DNA of 63,418 nucleotides from the NCBI GenBank assembly GCA_009838625.1, contig VXRG01000036.1, positions 1-63,418 on the forward strand. The letters are read 5' to 3'. This DNA is from Caldilineaceae bacterium SB0664_bin_27 (GTDB lineage: Bacteria; Chloroflexota; Anaerolineae; Caldilineales; Caldilineaceae). Shown here one piece after another: positions 35,635 to 51,358 of the stretch (its first letter is position 1; every line of letters begins with the position of its first letter). Both the position numbers and the translations under genes were made by a program. The notes below the pieces were generated by a model that worked only from the letters and a program-made list of their open reading frames with translations, was not told the origin of the DNA and made no database searches.

Positions 35635-37425
35635 TTACCAGCTCGGCTGCACGCCGCTGTATCCCTGGACATAACCTGGCTTAGGCCGCCGGATCAGCTC
35701 ATCCACGGCCGCGCCGGGCGCCACCATCGGATAGACATTCACTTCCTCTTTCACCTGGAAATCGACCAGAAACGGCCCATCGGTTGCGTGCGCCTGCTCC
35801 AGGACCGGCACCACTTCGCTCGGATGACTAACGACTGCGGCGGGGATGTCATAGGCGTCAGCCAGCTTTACATAGTCCGGAGAGAGAATTGGCGTTCCAA
35901 CATAGCGCTTGTCGTAGAAGATCTGCTGCCACTGGCGCACCATGCCCAGAAATCCGTTATTGATAATGCCGATCTTGACCGGCAGCTTCTCCTGCTGGAT
36001 GGTGGCCAGCTCCTGCAAAGTCATCTGGAATCCGCCGTCACCTGCCACGCACCAGACCAGCGCATCCGGATCAGACATTTGGGCGCCGAGTGCGGCCGGC
36101 AGTGCATATCCCATCGTGCCCAGGCCGCCGCTGGTCAACAGCATCCCGGCATGTTCATGGATATAGTACTGGCTCTCCCACATCTGGTGCTGGCCGACGT
36201 CGGTAACTACGATTACGCGCTTTTCGGTCCGCTCGGTGGCATGCCAGAGCTGCCGGATAACGTAGGGAGGAATCAACTCCTCTACTTCGAACTGAATGAT
36301 GTCGGCCTCGTCTGTCTCCGATCGCCACTCGTTCAGCGTGTCTACCCACTCCTGATGGCGCCGTTCCTTAACAAGCGGTAGATAGGCGGGCAGCGTATCG
36401 GCCAGGTCCCCCACCACGGCCACGTCGGGCACAATGTTTTTGCCCACTTCCGCCTTGTCCAGTTCAAAGTGGATGATCTTGGCGTTCGCGGCAAATCGAT
36501 CCAACCGCCCTGTGATGCGGTCGTCGAAGCGCATGCCCATCGCGATCAGAACATCGCAGGACTGAACTGCCCGATTTGCGAACGCCTCGCCGTGCATTCC
36601 ACCCATTCCCAGGCTCAGGGGGTGCGTCTCTGGGATGTTACCCGTACCGAGCAACGTCGTAACCACTGGTATGCCGGCCTTTTCGACCAGTTGCAGCAGC
36701 TCTTCACTGGTATTCGAAAGGTGGACCCCGTGACCCGCAAGAATCAGCGGGCTTTCGCACTCGTTCAACAGGTCGGCCGCTGCCTGCACTGATTCGGGAC
36801 TGTATTCAGGCCATGGCTCGAACCCGGGCAGGTTTATCTCGAAATCGTAGCGGAATGTGCCGGTCTCAATCTGAACATCCTTGCAAATGTCGACCAGCAC
36901 AACGCCCGGCCGGCCTTCGCGAGCGATGTAGAATGCCTCCTTCATCACCAGCGGCAACTCGGCAATATCGGTCACCAGATAGTTGTGTTTGCAAACAGGC
37001 AGCGACACGCCCACAACGTCCGACTCTTGAAACGCGTCCGTGCCCAGCAGGTATGTCGGGACCTGACCCGTGATCGCGACAACGGGCACACTGTCCATCT
37101 GCGCAGTTGCAAGCCCCGTAACAAGATTCGTCGCACCGGGACCGCTGGTAACTATGCAAACGCCTACGTCTCCAGTGGCGCGGGCGAAGCCGTCGGCCAT
37201 GTGCGCAGCGCACTGCTCGTGCCGCACGAGGACGTGATGGATGCGGCCGTCCCCCTCATATTCGGCAAGCGCGTCATAGGCCGGCAGAATCGCACCGCCC
37301 GGATGGCCGAAAACAATCTGGACGCCCTCGCGCAGGAGGGACTCCCAGATCATCTCAGACCCGGTCATCTCCTGTGGACCCAGGTCATATCCGCTGTCTT
37401 TCGGTACTCTCTTGGCTAGTGCCAT
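35635..37425 (-). CDS. ilvB: Acetolactate synthase large (catalytic) subunit
   Basis: A 596-residue thiamine-diphosphate enzyme making acetolactate and acetohydroxybutyrate. Seen: [29 protein letters not shown] with the catalytic Glu in [19 protein letters not shown] (parts only), FAD-binding middle domain, and the diphosphate/magnesium motif [17 protein letters not shown] followed by [13 protein letters not shown] start at the ATG at 37425, which has AGGAGG seven bases upstream; an in-frame TTG at 37470 lacks a site. It is the first structural gene after the attenuator. Confidence 0.95.
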
Positions 37426-37565
37426 CCTTATCCTCCTGCTACCTGGCTCACTTTCTGTTGGGATAGTCAATCAGACCCACTTGGCCGGGTGTCCGCCATC
37501 CTGTACTTGCACTTCATAAGATGCTCTAAAGGCCGCGCTTGTTCCCTGACACTTACTCTCTTATT

Positions 37566-45180: not shown

Positions 45181-46287
45181 CTAGACCGGATGCAATCCTG
45201 CGAATCCCAATCCCATTGACTCCTCCCAGCCGCACATCAAATTCATGCTCTGAAGGGCACTGCCCGCTGCCCCTTTTACCAGGTTGTCAATGGCGCAAAG
45301 CGCAACCACACGTCCCGTCCGTTCATCCAGTTCGAAACCGACGTCCGCGTAGTTGCTGCCGCTCAGAATCTTCGGTTCCGGGTATCGGTAGATGCCGGTC
45401 TTCTCCTTCACGATTCGGACGAATGGCTCGTCCCGGTACGTCTGCCGGTAGGCCCGCCATAGGTCCCGTTCGCTGACGCCATCTTTTACGAAGACGTGGG
45501 CGGTGGCCAGCACACCCCGCACATTGTCGACCGCAGTCGCGCTCATGTGTGCCTTGACATGCGAATAGTCTTCCGCTTCCGTCAGTGCCAGGGCCTGCAG
45601 AATCTCTGCAGTGTGGCGATGGCCGGTAGGGGCGAAACTACGCATCGCCCGCGCCCGTTCCGGGTGATGGGTCGCATCTCCGGCTCGATTCCCGCCTTCG
45701 CTGCTTCCTACTTTCACCTCACAGATCAGGTCCCGCGACGCGTCAGCCAGCCCTGCCGCGAAGAGCGGCCACACGGCCAGTACACTCGCAGTTGCGTTGC
45801 AGCCGACCCCACTCACATAAGATGCACCGCAGATCTGTTGGCGGTATAATTCCGGCAGTCCGTAGACGAATCTTTTGAGCCAGTCAGGATTGCTGTGCTC
45901 CTTGCCATACCAGTCTGCGTAGGCCTGTACATCTTGCAGTCGGAAGTCGGCGCTCAAATCTATGATGCGATTGGCCAGCCCTGCGAACTCGTCGATTCGC
46001 CCCATCGCGCCGCCGTGAGGCAGCCCCAGCACAAGCAGGTCGCAGGGCCCAAGCTCGGCCGCGCTTACAAACTTCAGTCGTGTACGCCCGCGCAGGTTCG
46101 GATGGGTGAAATGGACAAACGACCCCGCATTGCGTTCGCTCGTCACCTGGGCGATCTCGACATGCGGATGATCAAGCAGCAGACGCAGTAACTCACCGCC
46201 TGCATAACCGCTGGCACCGAGGATAGAAACAGATAGCTTAGAACCTGAACCGGCTTGCCCCACGATCTGAACGCTCCCTTTCTGCAT
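45181..46287 (-). CDS. lysY: LysW-aminoadipyl-6-phosphate reductase (ArgC family)
   Basis: A 368-residue NADPH-dependent reductase that turns the LysW-bound aminoadipyl phosphate into the semialdehyde. The nucleotide loop GASGYAG is at 24-30 and the catalytic Cys163 is in SGVGCNATAS. LGLPHGG and IDLSADFR are typical of the ArgC/LysY family. The assignment as LysY rather than ArgC rests on its position after lysW and lysX. In some organisms the same enzyme serves arginine synthesis, so dual use is possible. Weak ribosome site at the ATG at 46287; the true start may be a GTG nine codons downstream. Confidence 0.85.
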   Translation of the reverse strand: MQKGSVQIVGQAGSGSKLSVSILGASGYAGGELLRLLLDHPHVEIAQVTSERNAGSFVHFTHPNLRGRTRLKFVSAAELGPCDLLVLGLPHGGAMGRIDEFAGLANRIIDLSADFRLQDVQAYADWYGKEHSNPDWLKRFVYGLPELYRQQICGASYVSGVGCNATASVLAVWPLFAAGLADASRDLICEVKVGSSEGGNRAGDATHHPERARAMRSFAPTGHRHTAEILQALALTEAEDYSHVKAHMSATAVDNVRGVLATAHVFVKDGVSERDLWRAYRQTYRDEPFVRIVKEKTGIYRYPEPKILSGSNYADVGFELDERTGRVVALCAIDNLVKGAAGSALQSMNLMCGWEESMGLGFAGLHPV

Positions 46288-46311: not shown

Positions 46312-47190
46312 TCAACTGTTAGCGGCTTCCCAGCCCTCTCGCCCCACTTGCAAGACAAAATCAGCGATGCGGCCAGGTATATTCACGCCGGTCGGCTGCA
46401 CACTGTTGCGAAACTCCATTGTGTAGTTGACTTCGTTCACAAGCAGCCCTCGATCCGGATCCTCTAGCACATCAATGGCCACGCAACCGCCGCCAACGGC
46501 CTGTGCAGCCCGTACGCAGATGTCGTTCAGTTCCGGCGTTACAGGGCAGACGGAAGCAAGACCGCCTCGTGCCGTGTTGGTAATCCAGTGCGGCGAATCC
46601 CTGTAGATGGCGCAGATCGTCTCGCTCCCCACCGTGAACGCGCGGATATCGCGCCCCGGCTTCTCGACGTACTCCTGTATGTAGAAAATGCTGTGATGGT
46701 AGGTCCCCAATACCTCCTTGTGCTCCAGGACCGTCTCCGCCGCTTCTCGATCGTTTATCTTGCTTAACAACCGACCCCACGATCCAATTGACGGCTTCAT
46801 CACCACTGGATATCCCAGCTCTTCCATTGCCTCCAGCGCGCTTTCCGACGTGAAGGCAACCTTCGTGCGCGGCGAAGGAATGCCGGCTGCTGTCAGAGCG
46901 CTCGTCGTCTGAAGCTTGTCGCCGCACACGTCCGCCACCTGCACCGAATTGACCGTCGGGATCCCGCGATCATTGAGAATGCGCAGACTTACAAGGGCGC
47001 GCCCGTGATGGATACAGCGCTCGACGATTACATCGTAGTCGTCGTAACACGTCGAATCCGCCCCGCCCGAGATGTCAAAGATCAGTTTCCTGTCGTCGAG
47101 CAGGTCGAACTCGGCGCCTCTCAACCTGAACTCTTCGAACAGCAGCTTCTCCTCCGCGCGTACGCGGCTGTAGAGGATGCCAACTCGCAT
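46312..47190 (-). CDS. lysX: alpha-Aminoadipate-LysW ligase
   Basis: A 292-residue ATP-grasp enzyme that joins the alpha-amino group of aminoadipate to the C-terminal Glu of LysW. Seen: [37 protein letters not shown], the nucleotide segment [18 protein letters not shown], and the late magnesium/substrate motif [20 protein letters not shown]. The EVNYTMEF sequence matches LysX rather than RimK. It begins five bases after lysW, so carrier and ligase are made together. Confidence 0.93.
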
Positions 47191-47195
47191 CGGTC

Positions 47196-47381
47196 CTATT
47201 CTCCCCAGTCCTCGTCCTCTTCCGGCGCCAAATCAAGCGCCACAGGATCTAACCCGATGACCTCCAGGTCCACGCCGCACTCGCCGCACTGGACGATTTC
47301 ATTCTCCATCACGTCGTCGAGTTCGACTTCGCCGAAGCATTCCGGACATTCTGTCACAGCGGAAACGGTTTGAACTGCCAT
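47196..47381 (-). CDS. lysW: Amino-group carrier protein LysW
   Basis: A 61-residue acidic carrier. Four cysteines form a zinc ribbon (Cys12, Cys15, Cys32, Cys35). The C terminus EDEDWGE ends in the conserved EDWGE glutamate to which aminoadipate is attached. I use the ATG at 47381, which has AGGAG seven bases upstream; the longer in-frame reading to 47480 adds a basic stretch not found in LysW. It identifies the whole cluster as the LysW-dependent aminoadipate route to lysine. Confidence 0.95.
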
Positions 47382-47949: not shown

Positions 47950-48453
47950 TCAATCAGACAAGCGAGTTGACGCAAGGCGACGCTTGACCTGTTCGACTAA
48001 CCCGCCAGCCTCCAGAATCTCCTGCACGGTCGCGCTCATTGGCGGGAAACCAAAGCTTCCGGAAGCGCAGTCGATGGTCCGCCGCTCCAGGTCCACCGAG
48101 ACATCCTCCTGTCCTTGGATCGCCTGCGCGGCCTCCGGGCAGACGATTACAAGCAGGCCGTTGTTGATGGCGTTGCGGTAGAAGATTCGCGCAAAGCTTT
48201 CCGCAACTACTGCGCCGACCCCGCTGTAGACCAGGCAAGTCGCGGCCTGCTCGCGACTTGACCCGCAGCCAAAGTTGCGGCCGCCTACTATCAGATCGCC
48301 GACGCGCACGTCGGACGCGAACGCGGGATCCAGGTCTTCCAGTGCATGGCTGGCGATCTCGTCCCGACCCTTTGCCGTATACGTATATTTGCCCGGAAAC
48401 AGCACATCGGTATTGACATTGTCCCCGTACTTCCAGGCCCTGCCTCGAATCAC
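47950..48453 (-). CDS. lysU: Homoaconitase small subunit
   Basis: A 167-residue swivelling subunit of the LeuD/AcnA family. Seen: [58 protein letters not shown]. The short form (about 165 residues) is that of archaeal-type LeuD/LysU, distinct from the 205-residue LeuD in the leucine cluster. With LysT it converts homocitrate to homoisocitrate. I place the start at the GTG at 48453 because CGGAGGAATGAA precedes it; a GTG at 48495 has no site. Confidence 0.88.
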
Positions 48454-48539
48454 TTCATTCCTCCGGCCGGCGGCTGATTCCACATCGACCTGCACAGGCG
48501 CCGCGAGCTGGGCGACGCTGATTCACACATCATTGCTAC

Positions 48540-49907
48540 TTACATAACGTCCCTGGGATCGGCAATCCTGCCTGCAACCGCCGACGCCGCCACAACCGCC
48601 GGACTCGCCAAATAGATCTCGGCGTCGGTCGTGCCCATGCGCCCCCGAAAGTTGCGGTTGGCGCTTGAAATGGTTACTTCCCCAGTTGCCGGTACCCCCA
48701 TGTGGTTGCCCATGCAGGGCCCACATCCCGGCGTTCCGATGGCGGCGCCCGCGGCAACGAGCGCCTGAATGTAACCGCGGTTCATGGCCTCCTGCAACAC
48801 CAGGCTGGACGCGGGAATTACCAGCAAACGCGTACCTGCGGCAACCTGGCGGCCCTCCACAATTTCCGCGGCCTCAGCAATATCCTCGAGACGCCCGTTT
48901 GTGCATGTCCCGATAAACGCCTGCTGCACCGCAGTCCCCGCCACCGCCGACAATGGTGAGACATTGTCTACGGTGTGTGGGCACGATACGGTAGGCTCCA
49001 GTTCAAATGCGCTATAGCGGTAAGTCGCAAGGTACGCGGCGCCGTCATCAGGAAAGAGCTGCGACTCAGCAACACTTGGTGAAGCTTCTTCAGCCGTTCC
49101 CCCATCCTTCTCCCTCGCCGCTCTCCTCTCCAGGCCGGCCTCCAGGTAAGACCGCGTCTTTCCGTCAGGAGGCACGTATGCTGATTTGGCGCCGAACTCG
49201 GCCATCATATTGGCAAGGGCCATTCTCGAATCGATGCTCAGGACCCCGATGCCGCTGCCGCTGAACTCAACAGAAGTATATAGTCCACCGTCCGCGCCCC
49301 AGTCTCCGATAATACGCAATGCGAAGTCCTTGGCTGTAACGCCTTTCGGCAGTTCGCCCTCCAATACAATTCGGATCGACTCCGGAACACGTAGCCATAG
49401 TTCACCCGTAGCCCAGAGAGCAGCGACTTCGCTTCGGCCAATGCCTGCCCCGAATGCGCCCAGCCAGCCAAAGTGCGGCGTGTGACTGTCCGCGCCCAGA
49501 ATGGTCTGCCCCGGCAACACCAGCGCCTCTTCGCTGAGAACCTGATGGCAAATCCCCCTTCCTACTTCGAAGAAGTGGCGAATGCCCTGCTCCTGCACAA
49601 AACTGCGGATCTCAGCATGATTCTGTGCGTGGCGAGTCGTCGGCGGCGGCACGGCATGGTCAAGGGTGATCGCAAGTCTTTCAGGGATCACTACCAGCTC
49701 CTGCCCGAACTGTTGCCATATCTCCCGGATCGCGGCCGTGTTGTCGTGACTCAGCACTACGTCAGGGCGCACGTCCACGACCTCCCCTACTTCTACGCTT
49801 TCACAGCCGGCAGCCCGCGCGAGCGCCTTCTGCGCGAAAGTCTGGGCGTCTTGACTAACCTCTTTTTTTTGACCCACCGAGAGAGTCGAGGGCGACTGCT
49901 GGCTCAT
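48540..49907 (-). CDS. lysT: Homoaconitase large subunit
   Basis: A 455-residue aconitase-superfamily protein. Seen: [39 protein letters not shown], the first cluster cysteine in [19 protein letters not shown] and the pair in [14 protein letters not shown]. It is closer to the archaeal/Thermus LeuC-LysT type than to the 467-residue LeuC of this contig, and context (homocitrate synthase upstream) supports homoaconitase. Near codons 12-15 the gene contains eight consecutive A residues (GGTC-A8-GAGG), a place prone to slippage. It lies 11 bases after lysS. Confidence 0.88.
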
Positions 49908-49918
49908 CTCCGATCCTT

Positions 49919-51076
49919 TTACACAGGCGGTGAGGGTACAGTCACTGCACGGCTGTGGTACTCACGCAGCAACACATCCACATCGTCCAAGCTCAGCTTG
50001 CGCTGGTCTGCTTCCTCCTTAATGTGCGCGGTCACCTCTTTCACTTGCGGATCGGTCAGGTCCAGCTGAAGCTGCTCGGCACGCTGTTTGACCGCGTTCC
50101 AGCCGGTTAGGCGGTGGGCAATGTGCAGATAGCGCGTCAGGCCAAAATCCTCCGGATCTAGGATCTCGTACGTGTCAGGATTATTGAGGATCGCCTTGGC
50201 ATGAATGCCCGCCTTATGTGTGAACGCGGTGTACCCGGTGATGTAGTTGTTAAAGGGCACGTCTACGCCCACTATCTCCGCCACAAAGTTCTCCACTTCA
50301 CGCAACATCGGCAAATTGTACTTGCTGCGAATCTGCTCTGGATCGAGAGCGTACATGCGCGCCACAAGGCCGCCCAGCGGCGTAATGCCGTTACGTTCAC
50401 CGATGCCCAACACAGACGTGTCCACATGGGTCGCGCCGGCCGCCAGTGCGCAGTATGAGTTGGCTATGGCGCAGCCGGTATCGTTATGGCCGTGAAACTC
50501 TATATCGCAGGAGACGACCCCACGCAAAGTCCGGACCAGGTCATGGACCTGCAAGGGGGTGGCAATTCCGACGGTATCGGCTATACCCACCCTGTTAACG
50601 CCAATCTGGTCCACCTCGCGGTAGACGGTTAAGAGATCGACCAGGTCACTGCGAAAAGAATCTTCGCTGCTGAACCGGACCTCCAGTCCCTGGCTCTTGA
50701 TGAATTCAATTACCTGTACCGCGCTGTCTATGATCTCGCGGATCGACTTTCCGTGAGAAAACTCCCTCAAATAGCTGCTGGTGCCAAAGAGCACGTCGAT
50801 GCCGTCAACGCCGGTGTCCACCGCCAGGCGGGCATCGTCCAGGTGGCAGCGGGTATGCGTAAGCAGCTTCGTTCCGAGCCCCAGGCCGGCGATGCGCGTG
50901 CAATCGGCTCGACTCTGCCGGCTCGCGGCAGGCGATGTCAACTCCAGGTATTCCACGCCAAAGGCATCCAGCAGCCGGGCGATTTCGTCCTTTTGCCCGC
51001 TGTCAAAGAAGGCATTGGCAAACTGCTCACCCTCTCGCAGTGTCGATTCAATTATGGAAAACTGTTCAAGACTCAT
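49919..51076 (-). CDS. lysS: Homocitrate synthase
   Basis: A 385-residue DRE-TIM metallolyase condensing 2-oxoglutarate and acetyl-CoA. Seen: [81 protein letters not shown] and [14 protein letters not shown]. This is the Thermus-type homocitrate synthase rather than NifV. I start at the ATG at 51076: GGGAG lies seven bases upstream and the protein then begins like the family. An ATG at 51121 would put the N terminus inside the attenuator hairpin. It is the first structural gene of the lysine operon. Confidence 0.92.
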
Positions 51077-51106: not shown

Positions 51107-51139
51107 AAAAAACCGGTCCATCCTGTCTGGAATGGCCGG
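51107..51139 (-). terminator. Attenuator terminator ahead of lysS
   Basis: On the minus strand CCGGCCATTCC and GGATGGACCGG pair (CCGG/CCGG, CCAT/ATGG, CC/GG with two single-base bulges) around an AGACA loop, followed by six U residues. It lies about 30 bases before the lysS ATG and 45 bases after the leader peptide stop. Confidence 0.75.
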
Positions 51140-51192
51140 TCGCTACGGTTGCAACGTCTGAGCAGGCGCAAACAACAGACAGGTCAGTCTGG
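51122..51192 (-). promoter_or_regulatory. Competing hairpins of the lysine attenuator
   Basis: Region 1 (51187-51191, CAGAC, in the last two leader codons) pairs with GUCUG at 51176-51180. Region 2 (51176-51183, CCUGUCUG) can instead pair perfectly over eight bases with region 3 (51122-51129, CAGACAGG), which consumes the loop and part of the 3' arm of the terminator. A ribosome held at the lysine codons would cover region 1 and favour the antiterminator. Confidence 0.7.
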
Positions 51193-51249
51193 ATTCCGCT
51201 TCTTGCTCTTTATGCAGGTCAACAGGGACGGTGTTTCCGAAATTCTCAT
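51184..51249 (-). CDS. Lysine leader peptide
   Basis: A 21-codon ORF from the ATG at 51249. Residues 13-18 read IKSKKR: three lysine codons (AAG AGC AAG AAG) within four positions, and these are the only lysines. The codons lie four to seven positions before the stop, so a stalled ribosome would cover region 1 of the following hairpins. The Shine-Dalgarno is weak (TAAGA far upstream). Support comes mainly from the combination with promoter, hairpins and operon function; a chance ORF is possible but the match in position is striking. Confidence 0.65.
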   Translation of the reverse strand: MRISETPSLLTCIKSKKRNPD

Positions 51250-51329
51250 TGGTTGTAGTCTTAGCCGCCTGTGCGGCCGCGCGCCTCATCCCGACATCTT
51301 TTGTTTCGCCGCTTATCCAACAAGGCGCA

Positions 51330-51358
51330 ATTGTACTGAACAAGGACGTATAAGTCAA
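51330..51358 (-). promoter_or_regulatory. Promoter of the lysine operon
   Basis: TTGACT and TACAAT separated by exactly 17 bases on the minus strand. The leader to lysS is about 250 bases and contains the leader ORF and attenuator. Confidence 0.75.

Follow-up and report, generated by a model that had tools for sequence, protein, structure and literature searches.

A predicted lysine-codon attenuator ahead of the LysW-pathway lysine operon in Caldilineaceae and other Anaerolineae

The lysine operon of Caldilineaceae bacterium SB0664_bin_27 is very likely governed by a ribosome-mediated transcription attenuator, which would sense charged tRNA-Lys and thereby control the genes of the LysW pathway. 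We base this reading on the Lys specificity of a short leader open reading frame (ORF), its conservation, the co-variation of its antiterminator, and a fold that depends on the position of the ribosome. The element lies on the minus strand of the window (the whole stretch of 63,418 nucleotides that was analyzed), and all window features discussed below are on that strand. The source genome groups with Caldilineaceae metagenome-assembled genomes (MAGs).

The operon opens with lysS, encoding homocitrate synthase (49919-51076; TIGR02146, 482 bits against a cut-off of 413.55), followed by the large and small subunits of homoaconitase, namely lysT (48540-49907; hacA_fam TIGR01343 and related aconitase-family models) and lysU (47950-48495; TIGR02087). 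Further downstream are lysW, the only copy in the genome, which encodes the amino-group carrier protein with its C-terminus EDWGE (47199-47357; TIGR01206, 61.9 bits, above cut-off), lysX (46312-47190; TIGR02144, 341 bits, above cut-off), and an argC/lysY-type reductase gene (45181-46287; TIGR01850). A NUDIX protein is also encoded among the downstream genes. An earlier, sequence-only reading had proposed that these genes make lysine by the LysW route, and the profile matches of LysW, LysX, and LysS bear this out. An intrinsic terminator thus stands before the first structural gene of the pathway that makes the amino acid to be sensed.

The leader begins with a predicted sigma-70-type promoter (51330-51358), in which TTGACT (51358-51353) and TACAAT (51335-51330) are separated by a 17-bp spacer; a TTGAC box and a TAnnnT-like -10 box can be recognized in the listed same-genus upstream regions. 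It is followed by a leader peptide ORF of 21 codons, MRISETPSLLTCIKSKKRNPD and a stop (51184-51249), ahead of which no clear Shine-Dalgarno sequence was found. Its lysines are confined to codons 14, 16, and 17 (Lys14-Ser-Lys16-Lys17, 51199-51210), and the peptide ends in Lys-Ser-Lys-Lys-Arg-Asn-Pro-Asp-stop. Among 19 terminator-like sites in the window, the lysS site alone has a Lys-rich ORF end ahead of it. Arginine was considered as the sensed residue, given Arg18 right after the Lys codons, and rejected: the position is not conserved and holds Gln, Pro, Val, Ser, or Glu in other genera.

Four RNA segments can be told apart around the leader stop. Segment 1, CCAGAC (51187-51192), coincides with the Pro-Asp codons before the stop, and its CAGAC (51191-51187) pairs over 5 bp with GTCTG (51180-51176) to form the 1:2 core. 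This hairpin has an additional outer arm, in which GAGCA (51204-51208), overlapping the Lys codons, pairs with TGCTC (51160-51164); in other genera the outer arm is a 7-bp GAGCAAG:CTTGCTC pairing across the Lys codons. Segment 2, CCTGTCTG (51176-51183), lies directly 3' of the leader stop and is a perfect 8-bp complement of segment 3, CAGACAGG (51122-51129), most of which sits within the loop of the terminator. The latter (3:4 hairpin and six U, 51107-51140), ACCGGCCATTCCAGACAGGATGGACCGGTTTTTT, has a stem at about 51140-51112 and a run of six T at 51112-51107, folds with -15.3 kcal/mol, and is kept in the family. The start codon of lysS is the ATG at 51076. Another ATG further upstream (51121) falls within the terminator, and in relatives with the terminator 100-200 nt upstream the LysS protein begins with MSL. 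The consensus promoter, the 21-codon ORF with a single lysine cluster, the 5-bp 1:2 hairpin at the leader stop, the perfect 8-bp 2:3 alternative, and the 3:4 stem with six U just before lysS had all been noted in the sequence-only reading, and each was recovered here.

Judging from the geometry, helices 2:3 and 3:4 should be mutually exclusive, because segment 3 and the 3' arm of the terminator are joined by a strand of 0-1 nt, which would need to bridge 8 bp. The 2:3 pairing of the window sequence, taken by itself, stays within the range of shuffled sequences (p about 0.10); its significance comes from its conservation and co-variation in relatives and not from single-sequence shuffles.

Folding constrained by the position of the ribosome gives the logic expected of an attenuator. 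With a ribosome placed at K14, K16, or K17 and the RNA in front of it folded up to segment 3, the computed probability of the 2:3 helix is 0.92-0.99. Without a ribosome, folding from the leader start up to segment 3 yields 0.90 for 1:2 and 0.10 for 2:3, and a ribosome at the stop codon covers segment 2 and makes it unavailable for pairing. As soon as segment 4 has been added, equilibrium favors the terminator in every state (0.97-0.99), and the 2:3 helix was not seen when the complete transcript, 5' UTR included, was folded at equilibrium. The switch shows up only if folding is confined to the RNA in front of the ribosome and the transcript has the right length. Since the full-length terminator wins in all equilibrium states, the modeled switch must be kinetic rather than an equilibrium one.

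The mechanism that we propose runs as follows. Transcription would start about 74 nt upstream of the leader ORF, with a ribosome following RNA polymerase and translating the leader. Under a shortage of Lys-tRNA, this ribosome would stall at Lys14-Lys17 and sit on segment 1, leaving segment 2 to bind segment 3 as soon as the latter emerges. The 2:3 helix occupies what would be the loop of the terminator hairpin and is predicted to be incompatible with it, so polymerase would continue into lysS. With ample Lys-tRNA, the ribosome would reach the stop and cover segments 1 and 2; the terminator could then form, and transcription would end before lysS. An untranslated leader would fold into the 1:2 hairpin, likewise leaving the terminator free. 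The earlier suggestion that the level of charged tRNA-Lys sets readthrough gains computational support from the in-frame Lys codons, the co-varying stems, and the position-dependent folding.

Within the genus and family the element is well preserved. In a first search, lysS was found in 15 of the 16 same-genus genomes and in eight family-rank genomes, with the leader visible ahead of it. A covariance model built from 25 leaders and run on 46 Caldilineaceae genomes returned one strong-scoring copy per genome in 40 of them, directly before lysS wherever both positions were retrieved. Same-genus sequences agree best in the core, from codon 12 to the U-run, with a mean pairwise identity of 0.92; the value is 0.65 for the stretch separating the U-run from lysS, 0.64 for the promoter, 0.60 for leader codons 1-11, and 0.39 for the 5' UTR. 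None of the 16 has an interrupted leader frame, and in 14 an ATG precedes Cys12 by exactly 11 codons (the deviations being a TTG start in L002 and an ATG at 14 codons in L009). The C-terminus CIKSKK.xPD-stop is nearly invariant in the genus; one member (L004) has Glu in place of Lys16.

The exceptions in the family are four genomes of the sister genus g26, G003 (81% complete, with no strong lysS match), and G272. In g26 (L046, L047, L118, and L120) lysS is present and the leader is absent, with unrelated DNA upstream. These upstream regions share a different conserved stretch, roughly 150 nt long and containing a TCGGTTATGCTAACGAGTCGGC motif. Because it stands where the leader is absent, control of lysS has probably been replaced in this genus. 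The case named beforehand as speaking against the attenuator, a relative that has no Lys codons and no alternative stems, does not occur in the genus or in most of the family, whereas g26 does lack the leader.

To look beyond the family, we assembled 152 distinct lysS upstream regions; they represent the class Anaerolineae along with a few other phyla, and a terminator is present in 83 of them. A cluster was counted when a short ORF located 20-150 nt before the terminator had, toward its end, at least 3 codons for one residue in a stretch of 6. Lysine is the sole strongly enriched residue: clusters of Lys occur at 58 of the 83 loci, followed by Leu (15) and Arg (14), and no other residue with two codons exceeds 3. 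With Caldilineaceae left out, Lys still leads with 29 of 51, ahead of Arg with 12. Going by the family labels from the lysS search, about 13 families have Lys-cluster leaders. At loci without a terminator, lysS lies directly behind another gene in 44 of 65 cases. Where lysX is the first gene (L061 and L069), the leaders precede lysX. The distribution across the class is patchy: in the flanks scanned, such a leader is missing within 3 kb of other lysS loci.

Similar leaders also stand ahead of lysS in Holophagales and other Acidobacteriota bins. In four of these (L042, L044, L045, and L062), LysS is about 77% identical to that of the window, and the leader and terminator have the same CCGGCCATCCAG...CAGGATGCGCCGG look; taken together, both likenesses suggest horizontal transfer between Chloroflexota and Acidobacteriota.

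Across the class, the leaders differ in sequence and share their segments. GAGCAAG covers the Lys codons, and CCGGACC comes ahead of the stop. GGTCTGG and GCTTGCTC serve as segment 2, which follows the stop in Caldilineaceae and elsewhere lies inside the ORF, where it reads Trp-Ser-Gly-stop. The 5' arm and loop of the terminator (e.g., GAGCAGCTTTCCCCAGACCAG) complement both parts of segment 2. In statistics uncorrected for phylogeny, a mean energy of -21.2 kcal/mol was obtained for cognate 2:3 duplexes and one of -17.1 (sd 0.43) after permutation of the partners, none of 10000 permutations being as low, and the first pair outside the GTCTGG:CCAGAC core is T-A in 6, C-G in 4, and G-C in 9 of 27 cases, i.e., Watson-Crick in 19 of 27 (shuffle p=0.0005). 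The antiterminator even exceeds the terminator in stability in several relatives (in L163, -37.5 vs. -25.8). The sequence-only reading had called for co-variation of both pairings: the antiterminator does co-vary class-wide, but the stems inside Caldilineaceae hardly vary and are uninformative in either direction.

Other readings of the same leader deserve consideration. The nascent peptide (...KSKKxPD) could act as an arrest peptide, stalling the ribosome at the stop under high free lysine, so that segment 2 would be covered and the terminator left free; free lysine rather than tRNA charging would then be sensed. A stall at the stop would lead to termination and so act in the same physiological direction, and the near-invariant C-terminus within the genus fits such a peptide. 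Across families, however, the C-termini differ (AKKKSKRIPEPD, NKKSKKQVAG, KSKSKKPDLWSG, GKEKKPDKNLVSCT, EGKKPGP, and ASKKPTAPPG in Deinococcus) and only Lys recurs, whereas the conserved PD-stop and W-S-G-stop are accounted for by RNA segments 1 and 2. We regard an arrest peptide as quite improbable.

We give still less credence to a leader in which the stems serve a bound ligand or protein (an L-box riboswitch, a T-box, or a protein-binding antiterminator) and the short ORF is incidental. Such systems do combine a terminator with alternative stems, but the frame and its Lys codons are kept where the surrounding DNA varies, Lys is uniquely enriched, and no Rfam family matches at gathering or permissive thresholds, including the lysine riboswitch (RF00168) and the T-box. 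For lack of any match, a riboswitch or T-box identity was rejected. That the terminator forms in every state at equilibrium might also point to an unregulated terminator, or to a readout of general translation instead of lysine; with competing stems conserved and a codon enrichment specific for lysine, this is the reading in which we place the least belief. Attenuation through charged tRNA-Lys is the account that we retain.

The window leader is a single Lys unit and not tandem. In several other Anaerolineae, tandem Lys units stand before lysX or lysS: two complete sets of Lys leader, antiterminator, and terminator follow each other in L061 (1780-2085), L069 (1771-2085), L024, and L152, and L125 is probably tandem as well. 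Tentatively, and with rather more doubt than confidence, we suggest that an old and widespread Lys attenuator of the LysW pathway (in Chloroflexota, Deinococcota, and some Acidobacteriota) was duplicated in several Anaerolineae (these four loci and possibly L125) into two serial Lys-sensing units, giving a steeper response. If true, polymerase would pass two lysine checkpoints, making this a tandem amino-acid attenuator that senses one amino acid.

Leaders of other kinds were also encountered. At 37745-37574 in the window, a 30-aa leader rich in Leu, Val, and Ile (MSSISVLNLLISLTVILPGLVALLVSGSRP and a stop), followed by the terminator GACCCTTCCCCAACCGGGAAGGGTTTTTC, precedes an acetolactate-synthase-like gene (35635-37470), beyond which lie ilvC- and leuA-like genes; this is likely a second attenuator. 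Weak second matches of the covariance model in G265 and G267 fall in another leader and not in a Lys leader, and one in G021 was not confirmed as a leader. The related leaders in question (MNCITFLRKSPEQ and MNQHKSCSSLLRKSPEQ, each followed by a stop, in L209 of G267 and L210 of G265) come with CCAGACAATTGTCTGG and the terminator GGCTCTCCGGACGGAGAGCC, and that of L209 reads into an argC-like gene; they are possibly arginine attenuators of similar build.

How does the lysS leader relate to known systems? Control of lysine genes in bacteria is usually described via the L-box riboswitch or repressors. The lysS leader shares with the L-box the lysine-responsive control of lysine genes from a leader, yet has no Rfam match and no aptamer, and is a coding leader instead. 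It resembles the classical trp, his, leu, thr, and ilv attenuators in its regulatory codons, its 1:2, 2:3, and 3:4 stems, and its U-run before the first biosynthetic gene. In contrast to these, it would sense Lys, most of its segment 3 sits in the terminator loop, and in the window species the antiterminator appears to be favored kinetically and not thermodynamically. As for serial arrangements, we know of no description of tandem units that both read the same amino acid. The leader ORFs of the Salmonella mgtCBR operon respond to different signals, whereas both tandem units in Anaerolineae are Lys leaders. Tandem attenuators as such are known from that operon, with two leader ORFs in series as in some of the relatives studied here (PMC3641672).

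The closest counterparts come from outside the phylum. On a Deinococcus plasmid, lysS-lysW-lysX is preceded by MTALATASKKPTAPPG and a stop, with a terminator hairpin of -21.9 kcal/mol and a 2:3 pairing of -20.4, so this Lys-Lys leader and terminator are comparable to those of Caldilineaceae. Leader-peptide attenuation has reportedly also been described for the lysine gene cluster of Thermus thermophilus (by Tsubouchi et al. in J Biol Chem, 2005). This cluster has the alpha-aminoadipate/LysW pathway, homocitrate synthase as the first gene, and control by a Lys-codon leader in common with the operon described here. It belongs to a different phylum, and the Caldilineaceae leader has its own family-wide core (KSKKxxPD-stop and CCTGTCTG:CAGACAGG). 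The view of the sequence-only reading that no ribosome-mediated attenuator had been described for the LysW pathway needs correction in light of these two cases, and because of them the lysS leader is not categorically new. A lysine-codon attenuator across about 13 Anaerolineae families would nonetheless extend the one case known to us, that of Thermus, to a major environmental phylum. It would also supply a covariance model, absent from Rfam, for the annotation of LysW operons, and the series of leaders, including tandem copies and losses, would offer natural material for the evolution of peptide attenuators. Set against its predecessors, the lysS leader is a classic kind of switch and not a new principle; what is new is its broad distribution, the co-variation of its antiterminator, and the tandem copies in some Anaerolineae.
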